From Halorussus salinus (GTDB taxonomy: Archaea > Halobacteriota > Halobacteria > Halobacteriales > Haladaptataceae), in assembly GCF_004765815.2 (NCBI RefSeq), contig NZ_ML974127.1, positions 784,927 to 848,926 on the forward strand: a DNA stretch of 64,000 nucleotides, given 5' to 3'. The notes beneath the pieces are model-generated. The model searched no databases. It was given only the letters and a program-made list of their open reading frames with translations, and was not told the origin of the DNA. The position numbers and the translations under genes were made by a program. Positions within the stretch are counted from its first letter, which is position 1; every line of letters starts with the position of its first letter. Shown piece after piece: positions 54,359 to 61,879 of this stretch.

Positions 54359-54550
54359 TGCCGAGGGGTAGTCAGTCGGGACTTGTGTACTCGTCGGTCC
54401 CGAGCGTCGTGAGAATTGAACTGTGGCGACTCCTTGTCGAGGAGCAACGGCGAAGTCGAACGAAAGGGAGCGACTACCGACAGCACGGCAAGCGCCGACA
54501 GCACGACGAACAGCACTATCGCCGATGCCTATCAGACCGCCACTGCATAG

Positions 54551-54825
54551 CACCGTCCCGCACAGCCCTGTCCCGCACCGTCCCGCACAGCCCTGTCCCG
54601 CACCGTCCCGCACAGCCCTGTCCCGCACCGTCCCGCACAGCCCTGTCCCGCACCGTCCCGCACAGCCCTGTCCCGCACCGTCCCGCACAGCCCTGTCCCG
54701 CACCGTCCCGCACAGCCCTGTCCCGCACCGTCCCGCACAGCCCTGTCCCGCACCGTCCCGCACAGCCCTGTCCCGCACCGTCCCGCACAGCCCTGTCCCG
54801 CACCGTCCCGCACAGCCCTGTCCCG
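54551..54825. repeat. Minisatellite: eleven identical 25-bp units
   Basis: Eleven copies of a 25-base unit (CACCGTCCCG followed by CACAGCCCTGTCCCG) without any difference between them, then a partial unit at 54826-54840. The bottom strand has three GGG tracts per unit, 33 in all, so it may form G-quadruplexes. Frames across it stay open on both strands only because the unit lacks stops; they are not genes. There are no spacers, so it is not CRISPR. It lies in the 601 bases (54359-54959) upstream of get3 and downstream of the glycosyltransferase. The rest of that spacer (54359-54550) shows nothing. Confidence 0.95.
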
Positions 54826-54917
54826 CACCGCCCCGCACCGCAGACCGCGCCCCGTGCCTCCCCGCTTCCGCACTCGGCCGCGCAGAACCGCGAGCGCGGC
54901 CGAGCGCGCGGCGCATC

Positions 54918-58192: not shown

Positions 58193-59281
58193 TCACTCGA
58201 ACACCGCGTCGAAGGCGTCCGCGCCGAGCGGGTCGAACCGACCCGCCTCGACGTTCTCCTCGACGTGTTCCGGGCGGCTCATCCCCACGAGCGAGGAGGT
58301 CACGCCGGGCGCGCTCCGGGCGAAGTTGATGGCGCGCTGGACCGTCGTGTCGCCCGCCAGTCGCTCGCTCACGTCGTCGGGAATCTCGCTGGCCAACTCG
58401 CCCTGCGCGATGCTGGCGCTGGTGAAGACGTTCAGGCCCGCCTCGTGGGCGAACCAGAGCGCGCTCTGCGGTCCCTCGGGGCCTTCCTGCGCTTCGACGG
58501 TGAACGCATCGGCCATGAAGACGTTGAATGGCAACTGAATCGCGCGGAGGTGGGTCGCGGTGTTCTCGGCGGCCTTGGCGGCCTTCCGGGCGCGCGAGAC
58601 GATTTCGGGGAGCGAGAGGTACTGGTCGTCGGCTTCGGGAACGCGGAAGGCGTTCCACGTCGCCACGCCGTACTTCGAGATGTCGCCCTCGGCGGCGCGC
58701 TCTTCGAGGCGCGTGAAGGTGGCTTCGAGTTGGTCGTACACTTCTTCGCGCGAGTTCGCGTGGAGTTGCGTCTCGGGGTTGTGGACGTAGTAGAGGTCGA
58801 TTTCGTCCACGCCGAGGTTGTCGAGCGACCGGTCTAGCTGGTCGTCGATGAAGTCGGGCGCGATGCAGTGACTTCCGCGGGCTAACTCCTCGCGCTCGAT
58901 TAGCCCGGAGTCCACGAACTCGCGCTTGACGTACTCGCCGGGGTTCTCCGGGCGGGTCTCCTCGAAGGGGACGAACCCGCCCTTCGTGGCGACGAAGACG
59001 GCTTCGCGGTCAACGTCGGCCTCCTCGATTGCTTGCCCGACCGCGCGCTCGCTCCGCTGGCACCGGTAGTTGATGGCCGTGTCCACGACGTTGACGCCGC
59101 TTTCCAGCGCAGTGGCGATAGCGTCGCGGTACCGCGAATCCACTGCGTCGGTCGGGTCGCGGAGGTACGTCCCGACTCCGAGCGACGAGATGGCGAGACC
59201 ATCGAACAGCCGGAAGTAGGTCCGGCCGAAGTCGTCGCCGTGCTGAAGTTTGTACTCGTAGGTGCCGTCGTCGGTGGCCAT
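58193..59281 (-). CDS. Aldo/keto reductase
   Basis: 362 residues, TIM barrel. Catalytic tetrad: Asp and Tyr in VNVVDTAINYRCQRSE near 65-78, Lys in VFVATKGGFV near 100 and His in DLYYVHNPETQ near 168. NADPH-dependent by family; substrate unknown. Start MATDDGTYEYKLQHG. Divergent from the cupredoxin-lipoprotein gene, whose control boxes lie in the 129-base spacer. Confidence 0.9.
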   Translation of the reverse strand: MATDDGTYEYKLQHGDDFGRTYFRLFDGLAISSLGVGTYLRDPTDAVDSRYRDAIATALESGVNVVDTAINYRCQRSERAVGQAIEEADVDREAVFVATKGGFVPFEETRPENPGEYVKREFVDSGLIEREELARGSHCIAPDFIDDQLDRSLDNLGVDEIDLYYVHNPETQLHANSREEVYDQLEATFTRLEERAAEGDISKYGVATWNAFRVPEADDQYLSLPEIVSRARKAAKAAENTATHLRAIQLPFNVFMADAFTVEAQEGPEGPQSALWFAHEAGLNVFTSASIAQGELASEIPDDVSERLAGDTTVQRAINFARSAPGVTSSLVGMSRPEHVEENVEAGRFDPLGADAFDAVFE

Positions 59282-59353: not shown

Positions 59354-59405
59354 TTTTAGGTGTGCCAAAAACAGAACGTTTTTCTAATTTAGGCGGACCT
59401 AAATT
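59354..59405 (+). promoter_or_regulatory. Two tandem DtxR-type palindromic boxes
   Basis: Box 1 is TTTTAGG-TGTG-CCAAAAA at 59354-59371 (one mismatch in symmetry). Box 2 is AATTTAGG-CGGA-CCTAAATT at 59386-59405, a perfect inverted repeat. TTAGG-N4-CCTAA is the pattern known for DtxR/SirR-type metal-dependent repressors in haloarchaea (recalled). Box 2 ends six bases before the ATG at 59411, where it would block transcription. Confidence 0.7.
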
Positions 59406-59410
59406 CTAGC

Positions 59411-61879
59411 ATGGCGACGAACCGACGCGACCTGTTGAAAGCGGGAAGCGCACTGCTCGCAGGCGTCTCGCTGGCTGGCTGTGGGGGACGGCTCGAAGAA
59501 GGTACTAGCACGACGACCTCTCGGGTGACCGTGACGACCGACGCCGAGGAGACGACCACGACCGGCGGTGACCCGCCGAGTGCCGCCGAACTCGCGGTCG
59601 CGGCCGAGTGGAACGTCTACCGGGCGATGGCCCACGACGCGCTCGCGCTCGGTCTCGCCGGAGAGTTCGACGCCGCGGCCACCGTCGCGGGCGACACCTT
59701 CGAGAAGTTCGAGAAAGCCTCCGGCGAGTGGGGTGCCCACGAAGCCCTCGAATCGACCGGCAAGGAGTACTACGAGGAGTTCGAGGAAGCCCTCGGCCAA
59801 CTCCGGGAGCGCGCCGGGGGCGAGAACGTCGAGGAGATGCGCGTCGAGACGGGTCTCGTCTCCGAACACCTCTCGGCGGCCCAGACGGCGCGGGCGGGAA
59901 CGGCGAACGCCCACGCGCTGGACCTGCTGGCGCTCGGGTCGCGGGCCTCGACCGCCGCCGCGCTCGCGGGTGCCGAGAAGTTCGACGCGGCCGCGACGGT
60001 GGCCGGTGACGCCTACGCGGCCTTCGAGGAGGCCGACGCCCACGCTGCGCTCGAAGAGGCCGACGGGGAGAGCTACGACGCCTTCGAGACGGCGCTCGAA
60101 GACGCGCAGAAAGCGGCGAAGAACGGAAGGCCGAAGCGAGTCCGCGAGCAGGCCAGCGCCGCGCTCGACGCCGCGGCGACCGGAGCCTACGCCGTGGCCG
60201 ACGGCGAGGAGGCGGCCGGTGCGGGCTACATCGCGGCGATGCAGGCCCGCGGCTACGACGCCGGGGCGCTCTCGTCGCTTGGCGGTCCCTCGACGGACTT
60301 CGCCCACGCCGCCGCCCTGAACGTCTACCGGGCGCGAGCCTACGACGCGGCGTGGCTGACCGCCCGCGGGCGGTCCGACCGCGCGAAGGCGGTCGCGCAG
60401 GACACCTTCGCGCACTTCGAGGGCGCGAAGTCCCACGAAGCACTCGAGGAGGCCGACGGCGAGGCCTACAAGGGCTTCGAGGCCGGGCTGAAGGACCTCG
60501 CCAGCGCGGCCGGGAACGGCGACGCGGAGGCCGCCCGGAAGGCCGCCGATGCCGTCGAAAGGCACCTCCGCGCGGGCATCTCGGCGCTCGCCACCCCGAC
60601 CGAGGCCGCGATGCTACAGGCCGCCTTCTTCCGCGCGCGGTTCGGCGACGCCCGCGAACTGTACGCGCTCGGCGACGGCGCGGCCGCCGCGAGCGTCGCG
60701 CAGGGTCTCTTCGAGCGGTTCGAGAAGGACCACCTCGGTTTCCACGAGGCGCTGGAGAGCGCGAGCGAAGACCTCTACGAGGGCTTCGAACACGAACACC
60801 TTCAGAAAGGGTTGATTCCGGCCTTCGAGAGCGGGAACGACGAGGAGGTCGAAACCCACTTCGCTGGCGTGAACGACGCGCTGTTCGAGTTCGAGACGAA
60901 GGTTGGTTCGACCGCGCGGGTCAGCGCGGCCGAGAGCGGACTGATGAGCGCCCGCGTGTTCGACGCCGCGGCGCTCTCGGCGCTCGGGCGGTCGAGTCGC
61001 GCCCGGTCGGTCGTCCAGTCGGCCTTCCAGCACTTCGAGGAGGGCGCGGGCGGCTTCCACGAAGCACTCGAAGGGGCCGACCGCGAGCTGTACGAGTCCT
61101 TCGAGAGCAGACTGAACGCGGTCGGCGGTGCGGCCAGCGGGTCGGGCGACGCCTACGCGAGAGCCAAGGAGTTCGACGCCGACGCGGTGGCCGGAATCTA
61201 CGCGGTCGTCGCAAACGCGGGCGGGGACTTCGGCGGCGCGGCCGCGAGCGTCGCGCGGGACGCCTTCGCCGGGTTCGAGGAGGCGAGAGTTCACGAGATG
61301 CTGGAGGAGGCCGACCGGGAGACCTACGAGAGCTTCGAGAGCAAGCTGAACGAACTCGTCGGCGCGCTGGACGACGGAACCGGCGTCTCGGGCGCGCTCG
61401 GAGCGTTCGCCCGCGCGTCGGTCCGCGCGGAGTTCGCCGTGGCCGGAGCGCCCGAGAAGGCCCCGGTCGGCGAGGGCGGCGGGGAGTCCGGGGGCGAGTC
61501 CGAGAAGCAACTCGAAGGCGGTCCGAACGTCGTGACGGGCGTGCCTGACGACGCCGACCACGTGGTGGACATGACGGCCGTCGCGTTCGAGCCAGCCGAA
61601 CTGACCGTGAAGAAGGGCGACACGGTGGCCTTCGAACACGTCGGCGGCGAACCCCACTCCGTCACGGCCGACGACGAGAAGATACCCGACGGCGCGGACT
61701 ACTGGGCGTCCGGCGGCTTCGACTCCCAAGAGAAGGCCGTGAAGGGCTGGGAGAGTGGGAGAGGCGCGGTCCAGTCCGGCCAGTCGTACGTCCACACCTT
61801 CGAGACGAAGGGGACTCACGAGTACTACTGCATCCCCCACGAGGCCGCGGGGATGGTCGGCACAATCGTCGTAGAGTAG
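59411..61879 (+). CDS. Lipoprotein with six helical repeats and C-terminal blue-copper domain (DUF5059-like)
   Basis: 822 residues. Tat lipoprotein signal NRRDLLKAGSALLAGVSLAGC with lipobox Cys24, then a Thr-rich linker. About 60-700 consists of six repeats, each with a core like DTFAHFEGAKSHEALEEADG and YKGFEAGL (HEALE core, conserved Glu/His/Tyr). The last 110 residues are a halocyanin-like cupredoxin with copper ligands His in GEPHSVTAD, Cys and His in YYCIPHEAAG and Met in AAGMVG. Predicted to sit outside the membrane and bind copper or transfer electrons. Two DtxR-type boxes upstream suggest metal-responsive expression. Confidence 0.85.
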   Translation: MATNRRDLLKAGSALLAGVSLAGCGGRLEEGTSTTTSRVTVTTDAEETTTTGGDPPSAAELAVAAEWNVYRAMAHDALALGLAGEFDAAATVAGDTFEKFEKASGEWGAHEALESTGKEYYEEFEEALGQLRERAGGENVEEMRVETGLVSEHLSAAQTARAGTANAHALDLLALGSRASTAAALAGAEKFDAAATVAGDAYAAFEEADAHAALEEADGESYDAFETALEDAQKAAKNGRPKRVREQASAALDAAATGAYAVADGEEAAGAGYIAAMQARGYDAGALSSLGGPSTDFAHAAALNVYRARAYDAAWLTARGRSDRAKAVAQDTFAHFEGAKSHEALEEADGEAYKGFEAGLKDLASAAGNGDAEAARKAADAVERHLRAGISALATPTEAAMLQAAFFRARFGDARELYALGDGAAAASVAQGLFERFEKDHLGFHEALESASEDLYEGFEHEHLQKGLIPAFESGNDEEVETHFAGVNDALFEFETKVGSTARVSAAESGLMSARVFDAAALSALGRSSRARSVVQSAFQHFEEGAGGFHEALEGADRELYESFESRLNAVGGAASGSGDAYARAKEFDADAVAGIYAVVANAGGDFGGAAASVARDAFAGFEEARVHEMLEEADRETYESFESKLNELVGALDDGTGVSGALGAFARASVRAEFAVAGAPEKAPVGEGGGESGGESEKQLEGGPNVVTGVPDDADHVVDMTAVAFEPAELTVKKGDTVAFEHVGGEPHSVTADDEKIPDGADYWASGGFDSQEKAVKGWESGRGAVQSGQSYVHTFETKGTHEYYCIPHEAAGMVGTIVVE

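Follow-up and report, generated by a model that had tools for sequence, protein, structure and literature searches.

A pair of palindromes of the TTAGG-N4-CCTAA type lies in front of a gene for a copper-domain lipoprotein of the DUF5059 family in the haloarchaeon Halorussus salinus, and we put at about 0.88 the probability that they serve as operators in the iron regulon of haloarchaea, at which a DtxR-family protein represses the gene whilst iron is sufficient and from which it is released when iron runs short. Iron is the most likely metal and repression the most likely sign of control, and we infer that both boxes are occupied by the repressor. There is a strong case that the two boxes form an operator pair of this regulon, most likely bound by a repressor, and that the pair has been deeply conserved with the DUF5059 gene; this suggests that the copper-domain protein helps the cell to cope with iron shortage. 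Coordinates are those of the window, by which is meant the whole stretch of 64,000 nucleotides that was analysed, and the features of the promoter and its gene are as follows.

59354-59371, no strand assigned: distal operator box TTTTAGG-TGTG-CCAAAAA (core 59356-59369), from the sequence, with one core mismatch.
59372-59388, plus strand: core promoter with BRE/TATA-like elements (AGAACG, TTTTTCTAAT), lying between the two boxes, from the sequence and from conserved columns in 77 aligned upstream regions.
59386-59405, no strand assigned: proximal operator box, a perfect palindrome AATTTAGG-CGGA-CCTAAATT (core 59389-59402), from the sequence and from orthologue conservation.
59411-61879, plus strand: DUF5059/copper-bind TAT lipoprotein gene, an open reading frame of 822 aa (PF16502, E=1.9e-221; PF00127, E=1.6e-17).

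The core of the distal box, TTAGG-TGTG-CCAAA, departs at one of its ten bases from the pattern, and that of the proximal box, TTAGG-CGGA-CCTAA, is exact and forms with its flanks a perfect palindrome with arms of eight bases. The two boxes start 33 bases apart in an intergenic stretch of 129 bp, on the far side of which a divergent aldo/keto reductase gene most likely starts at 59281. The original prediction of one near-perfect and one perfect palindrome, the second ending 5 bases before the start codon, was borne out (59405 against an ATG at 59411), and what it says of their overlap with the promoter stands once refined. Relative to the proximal box, the aligned upstream regions have conserved columns of CGAA type at -18 to -15 and TT[T/A] at -9 to -7, which we take to be a BRE and a TATA element; across orthologues this BRE/TATA-like stretch lies between the two boxes, with the proximal box directly after its TATA-like part, and the boxes would thus flank the predicted core promoter of the DUF5059 gene on both sides. 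Such a layout could help in reading iron regulons from sequence.

Under iron sufficiency a metal-loaded dimer of a DtxR-family protein would sit on the proximal box, the stronger of the two, which separates the TATA element from the start codon, and a second dimer would occupy the weaker distal box on the upstream side of the BRE, the two dimers together blocking access of TBP/TFB and RNA polymerase. On iron shortage the dimers would be released and the DUF5059 lipoprotein would be made together with the siderophore synthesis proteins, the ferri-siderophore binding lipoproteins and SufBCD.

The evolutionary record of the box is the first line of evidence. Of the 292 genomes sampled from the class, 77 have DUF5059 with a score over the cut-off; they are distributed over 27 of its 77 genera, one further match below the cut-off (in genome G146) being left out of the set. 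The gene is dispensable, since within Halorussus it was present in three of the seven sampled genomes and absent from the other four. When the regions upstream of 78 gene copies from the 77 genomes were compared, a script located a proximal box with no more than one mismatch 17 - 22 bases before the start codon in 77 copies, 70 of them with an exact box, and the remaining copy (L094), a split gene, was seen on inspection to have an exact box at the start of its first piece, which brings the figure to 78/78. A distal box, again with at most one mismatch, was found 33 - 37 bases from the proximal one in 63/78 copies. The other 15 comprise four with a two-mismatch distal box (L045, L061, L067, L091), three with a second box near -140 instead (L086, L088, L097) and eight with the proximal box only, five of these being short 500-aa forms. 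The background in the same loci (660 kb) was 26 exact boxes elsewhere, 14 of which represent a single site downstream of the DUF5059 gene in genus g10 (Haloarcula).

A second set of 72 loci from named genomes (L125-L196), which overlaps the 78 copies and is not added to them, gave a similar picture. The script set aside six loci without a clear start and found a proximal box in 64 of the 66 that were counted; inspection added L133 and L158 and, from those set aside, L162, L165 and L176, with one mismatch in L158 and L176, and three loci that are partial or unclear (L180, L183, L188) were left out. Named genomes with a box before the DUF5059 gene include Halobacterium salinarum (L175) and six Haloferax loci (L148, L149, L156, L166, L187, L193).

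Three minor observations on these loci may be recorded. In Haloarcula an exact box lies some 50 - 60 bases past the DUF5059 stop codon (L153, L155, L159, L165, L174, L179, and L161 and L171 too), followed in most by a short conserved reading frame of about 38 codons (MPDxQ...). Some DUF5059 copies match the profile in two pieces (L094:4708-5613; L112, genome G267), the frames differing or an insertion intervening, with the boxes intact. In Halorutilus salinus (L189:4819-5821) the box pair separates a DUF5059 gene of the short form from a divergently oriented gene for cation efflux (CDF).

Gene neighbourhood was tried as a functional clue and discarded. Three neighbours of the gene in the window were sought across 117 loci, 30 loci with flanks of only 1.5 kb (L039-L068) being left out, and the flanking aldo/keto reductase and DHH genes recurred only in the Halorussus-like loci L091, L102, L125 and L126 (L102 and L126 being the same stretch), the flanking MFS gene in these four and, at 52% identity, in L097. 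When neighbours were clustered over the 72 named loci, amongst the 15 largest groups DUF5059 itself accounted for 65 loci, a frame antisense to it for 25, and the rest for 16 or fewer each. The gene and its box promoter have been kept together across 27 genera, while the flanking genes of the window have not, and this places the DUF5059 family in a firm physiological context. Co-occurrence with siderophore synthesis is only moderately pronounced: IucA/IucC was found in 32 of 77 genomes with DUF5059 against 45 of 215 without (p=8e-4, with no phylogenetic correction, and leaving out G180, where the match is below the cut-off). A strict link between the two was rejected, 45 of the 77 DUF5059 genomes having no IucA/IucC over the cut-off.

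The second line of evidence is the frequency of the box. In the window alone the count at up to two mismatches is that expected by chance (5 sites against 5.4), so the evidence on which the original prediction drew was weak in itself. In the 4.75-Mb genome there are 22 exact TTAGG-N4-CCTAA sites against an expectation of 0.03, calculated from how often TTAGG occurs in the window. When all spacers from 0 to 14 were tested genome-wide there were 24 exact matches, of which 22 had a spacer of 4 and the other 14 spacers together supplied two. A control in which the pattern was read backwards proved commoner than the real one, both at up to one mismatch (50 against 36 per strand in the genome) and in exact matches summed over the 15 spacers (40 against 24), and we read this excess as a word-frequency effect, AATCC/GGATT words being commoner here than TTAGG/CCTAA. 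Despite the higher counts of the control, the confinement of the excess to one spacer makes the case against chance. Of the 22 exact sites, 18 end no more than 26 bases from a plausible start codon and 19 no more than 40, the distances for sufC and one DUF7552 gene having been read directly from the sequence. Pairs with a similar spacing occur at other promoters of the genome (C5:405725/405761), including two whose distal box has one mismatch (C1:210213/210247 and C1:205185/205219).

The same counts bear on the notion that the palindromes arose by chance or have a non-regulatory role, for instance as an RNA hairpin in which the two boxes pair in a leader transcript. The stretch does fold as RNA somewhat better than its shuffles (z -2.7), and the chance-like count in the window and the abundance of the backwards-read control could be cited in its favour. 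However, a chance origin was rejected on spacer specificity and on conservation of the box in all 78 orthologous copies, and the hairpin was rejected since the 4-base spacers of the two boxes show no co-variation over 63 loci (1.70 of 4 positions complementary, against 1.66 when shuffled) and there is no Rfam match. Haloarchaeal transcripts are mostly leaderless, so the boxes would mostly not be transcribed, which also counts against a hairpin. A chance or RNA-level origin is accordingly given very little credence.

The third line of evidence is the nature of the genes that the box precedes. Counting sites that share one intergenic region once, there are 18 box promoters in the genome, and behind 11 of them are iron-type genes, namely those for siderophore synthesis, for siderophore- or iron-type binding lipoproteins and for SufC. 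The targets include a diaminobutyrate aminotransferase, the first gene of a cluster with IucA/IucC proteins, eight Peripla_BP_2 lipoproteins, of which five are grouped about a FecCD permease and an ATPase, an SBP_bac_6 lipoprotein adjoining an ABC permease, and SufC, whose cluster also encodes two SufBD proteins and a DtxR-family protein of 142 aa. A genome scan had been proposed to see whether the box belongs to metal genes, and the box proves to be enriched at them. Since both the Peripla_BP_2 and the SBP_bac_6 families also include members that bind other ligands, the attribution to iron is based on SufC, on the cluster for siderophore synthesis and on the published work discussed below. 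The other seven box promoters serve genes of no obvious iron role: DUF5059 itself, two DUF7552 genes, LplA-like, GSDH-like and RGP-like genes and one for a 125-aa protein with no Pfam match.

With regard to these latter genes, both DUF7552 genes, one of which is fused to DUF7551, start 1 - 3 bases past an exact box (L025:5409-5855, equivalent to G000:C1:1300408, and L028:4310-5221, equivalent to G000:C3), and judged from sequence DUF7552 looks like another uncharacterised family that is iron-regulated. The gene for the GSDH-type lipoprotein (L021:5767-7176) has an exact box 14 bases upstream and the LplA-like gene (L022:5906-6751) one 90 bases upstream.

It might instead be argued that the operators serve manganese, with an MntR-like member of the DtxR family repressing DUF5059 when manganese is sufficient. 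There are box targets with no known iron role, a one-mismatch box of TTAGG-N4-CCAAA type is found 53 bases upstream of a gene for a ZIP-family metal transporter (L033, G000:C2:163477-163490), and the nearest NCBIfam models of the three DtxR-family proteins described below are all MntR models, each match falling below its cut-off. Against this stand the iron genes amongst the targets of exact boxes and the co-variation of a DUF5059 gene, HVO_1228, with the iuc cluster in Haloferax volcanii (PMC7714728), and we regard manganese as an improbable effector.

An operator of this kind calls for a regulator, and nine proteins of the genome match PF01325, six of them over the cut-off, three of which barely reach it. 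The three strongest, which were scanned further, are DtxR-family proteins, namely one of 260 aa that carries a FeoA domain, the 142-aa protein of the suf cluster and one of 181 aa; PF01325 is well over its cut-off in all three and PF02742 over its cut-off in two, and the 260-aa and 142-aa proteins match DtxR, IdeR and MntR structures by sequence. In Haloferax volcanii the suf genes presumably lie near HVO_0863, and on account of this synteny the first candidate for the repressor is most likely the short TroR-type protein beside sufCBD, the FeoA-domain protein or the third paralogue being less likely. TroR (HVO_0863) is one of the members of the family described in Haloferax volcanii along with Idr and SirR (PMC11349517), and a title in the reference list of that paper names TroR as the primary regulator of the iron network. 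The original prediction of control by a metal-responsive repressor of the DtxR/SirR kind is therefore supported, as a prediction, by the iron-gene targets, the DtxR-family genes and an operator before each DUF5059 copy examined, with the refinement that the regulator is not necessarily SirR.

Of the elements to be looked for in an iron-regulon operator, four are found here: a site of TTAGG-N4-CCTAA type, its position at the core promoter, sites at iron genes in the same genome and a gene of the DtxR family. The closest parallel, compared by description, is the ferR regulon signal of haloarchaea, which likewise is a DtxR-type palindrome before the start codon with fhu-type binding proteins amongst its targets, and the iuc cluster of Haloferax volcanii, which is also iron-responsive, belongs to a target class shared with the present box. 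The bacterial DtxR/IdeR box is 19 bp long and consists of two overlapping dyads. It has the same TTAGG half-site, and TTAGGTTAGCCTAA, with which the DtxR consensus begins, is present at two of the 22 exact sites. In contrast, the operator described here has one 14-bp dyad per box, and a second, separate dyad lies 33 - 37 bases away across the TATA region with no overlap. Assignment to the bacterial 19-bp box was therefore rejected, there being a single 14-bp core dyad in each box and starts 33 bases apart.

Published data from Haloferax offer some independent support. In a knock-down of the splicing endonuclease in Haloferax volcanii, HVO_1228, which has a DUF5059 domain, is listed amongst the ten most induced genes (log2 4.2), and the same top-ten table holds HVO_B0042-B0047, which make up the siderophore cluster, as well as an iron ABC gene (PMC7714728). 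HVO_1228 thus appears to be co-induced with the iuc genes, under a condition other than iron starvation. It is absent from the main text of an iron-starvation proteome (PMC11349517), and the part of a Haloferax mediterranei iron table that lists siderophore and ABC genes does not include DUF5059 (PMC11218638). For the fhu genes of haloarchaea a 'ferR regulon signal' is already on record (PMC11349517, citing Leyn and Rodionov 2015), and the UniProt name of the DUF5059 protein of Haloferax mediterranei is given as hcpG (PMC9240420). Amongst the literature matches listed, with supplements outside the scope, DUF5059, HVO_1228 or hcpG is nowhere named as a member of an iron regulon. The kind of operator is therefore known already, and DUF5059 as its conserved target looks new; published lists of regulon targets may already include it.

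What the protein itself might do was approached through its architecture, the elements of which are listed with residue numbers of the protein. The conservation figures refer to an alignment of 59 sequences that are 46 - 74% identical to the protein of the window, and the division of the solenoid into repeats is our own reading of the helix pattern.

59411-59482, plus strand: twin-arginine signal peptide and lipobox (RRDLLKAG...LAGC; residues 1-24), R5, R6, G23 and C24 being invariant in the 59 sequences.
59582-61444, plus strand: helical solenoid, residues 58-678, with six motif-bearing repeats, from an AlphaFold2 model.
59711-59785, plus strand: repeat 1 set, E101 H110 E114 Y121 E125, all at 100% in the 59 sequences.
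60026-60088, plus strand: repeat 2, a degenerate set, E206 H211 E215 Y222 E226, at 92, 67, 72, 80 and 83%.
60419-60481, plus strand: repeat 3 set, E337 H342 E346 Y353 E357, all at 100% of sequences with the repeat.
60722-60790, plus strand: repeat 4 set, E438 H445 E449 Y456 E460, all at 100% of sequences with the repeat.
61037-61105, plus strand: repeat 5 set, E543 H550 E554 Y561 E565, all at 100% of sequences with the repeat.
61277-61339, plus strand: repeat 6 set, E623 H628 E632 Y639 E643, at 100, 100, 98, 100 and 100%.
61520-61876, plus strand: plastocyanin-like blue-copper domain, residues 704-822, with putative ligands H749, C807, H810 and M815, from PF00127, a structure match and conserved columns.

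We take the first 24 residues to be a TAT signal with a lipobox. PF16502 (DUF5059) covers residues 62-685 with 737.6 bits against a gathering cut-off of 25, and PF00127 scores 64.2 bits against 21.2. The AlphaFold2 model has a pLDDT of 90.2 over the full protein and of 95.2 over the solenoid alone. The best structural matches of the copper domain are plastocyanins (2plt, Z 15.2, rmsd 1.0 over 91 residues), and of the putative ligands H749, C807 and H810 show no variation and M815 is kept at 97%, which amounts to a complete predicted type-1 set, His-Cys-His-Met. The protein thus shares a blue-copper domain and an archaeal lipoprotein nature with halocyanin and plastocyanin and differs from them in its extra solenoid of 620 residues, and its scores with the corresponding NCBIfam models fall below the cut-offs (plastocyanin, 70.8 against 87.85; halocyanin domain TIGR03102, 42.1 against 93.8). 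A halocyanin name would imply copper metabolism or denitrification, whereas the control of DUF5059 implies iron.

The solenoid is less readily placed. A search for sequence relatives in the PDB gave nothing convincing, the best match being a designed bundle (E 0.027). Its fold matches are weak helical bundles, of which the best by VIA-align, the small metal-binding protein SmbP (3u8v, Z 11.9, rmsd 2.2 over 83 residues), is below the level that can be trusted for helical models. What stands out is the Glu-His-Glu-Tyr-Glu set, kept at 98 - 100% in five of the six repeats (of sequences having the repeat) and at 67 - 92% in repeat 2. Histidine, glutamate and tyrosine are typical ligands of ferric iron, and the sets could instead be structural.

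Two versions of DUF5059 function are accordingly proposed, capture of iron or iron-sparing electron transfer. In the first, DUF5059 would represent a new class of archaeal surface protein for iron capture, made only under iron shortage, in which a lipid-anchored solenoid binds ferric iron through the Glu-His-Glu-Tyr-Glu sets of five of its six repeats and the blue-copper domain changes the redox state of the iron for hand-over to uptake, so that the job of EfeO would be done by an unrelated architecture without an FTR1 permease. Iron capture is favoured because of the conserved repeat sets, and this full version of it is offered as a doubtful, though possible, scheme. In the second, the plastocyanin-like domain would replace an iron-containing electron carrier when iron is scarce and the solenoid would be only a spacer or docking scaffold. 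The complete type-1 copper ligand set, conserved at 97 - 100%, the plastocyanin-like structure of the copper domain and the lack of a match in the genome to the FTR1/EfeU permease (PF03239) that an EfeUOB-like system would use all speak for an electron carrier, but it leaves unexplained both the need for a solenoid of 620 residues and five near-invariant Glu/His/Glu/Tyr/Glu sets in proteins of about 50% overall identity. With a complete copper site and no known permease the electron carrier stays a live possibility, to which we would give somewhat less than even odds.

The comparison with EfeO that underlies iron capture deserves qualification. EfeO of the EfeUOB iron transporters combines a cupredoxin and an imelysin domain (PMC3143127). 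Both EfeO and DUF5059 join a cupredoxin domain to a helical region outside the cytoplasm and occur in an iron context, and DUF5059 differs in having the cupredoxin domain at the C-terminus (the order being reversed), more repeats, a complete type-1 copper site and a lipoprotein anchor. When the solenoid was compared with the imelysin fold, which consists of two four-helix bundles, its match to Escherichia coli EfeO (7wgu, Foldseek E 1.3) was weak and within the noise for helical models, as is that to imelysin (3n8u, Z 9.1, rmsd 3.0 over 109 residues), and the solenoid gave no match to the M75 profile in hmmscan (limit E 5, with filters that drop most matches above about 0.1), PF16502 being the only one found. 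An EfeO-like system with FTR1 was rejected, there being no FTR1 gene in this genome; DUF5059 itself may work like EfeO.

Elsewhere in the window, at 54550-54838, there is a near-perfect tandem repeat of 25 bp in 11.6 copies (99% matches), which falls within a long reading frame of the minus strand, in its 5' part; a GKGGVGKTT ATPase motif can be made out by eye in that frame.
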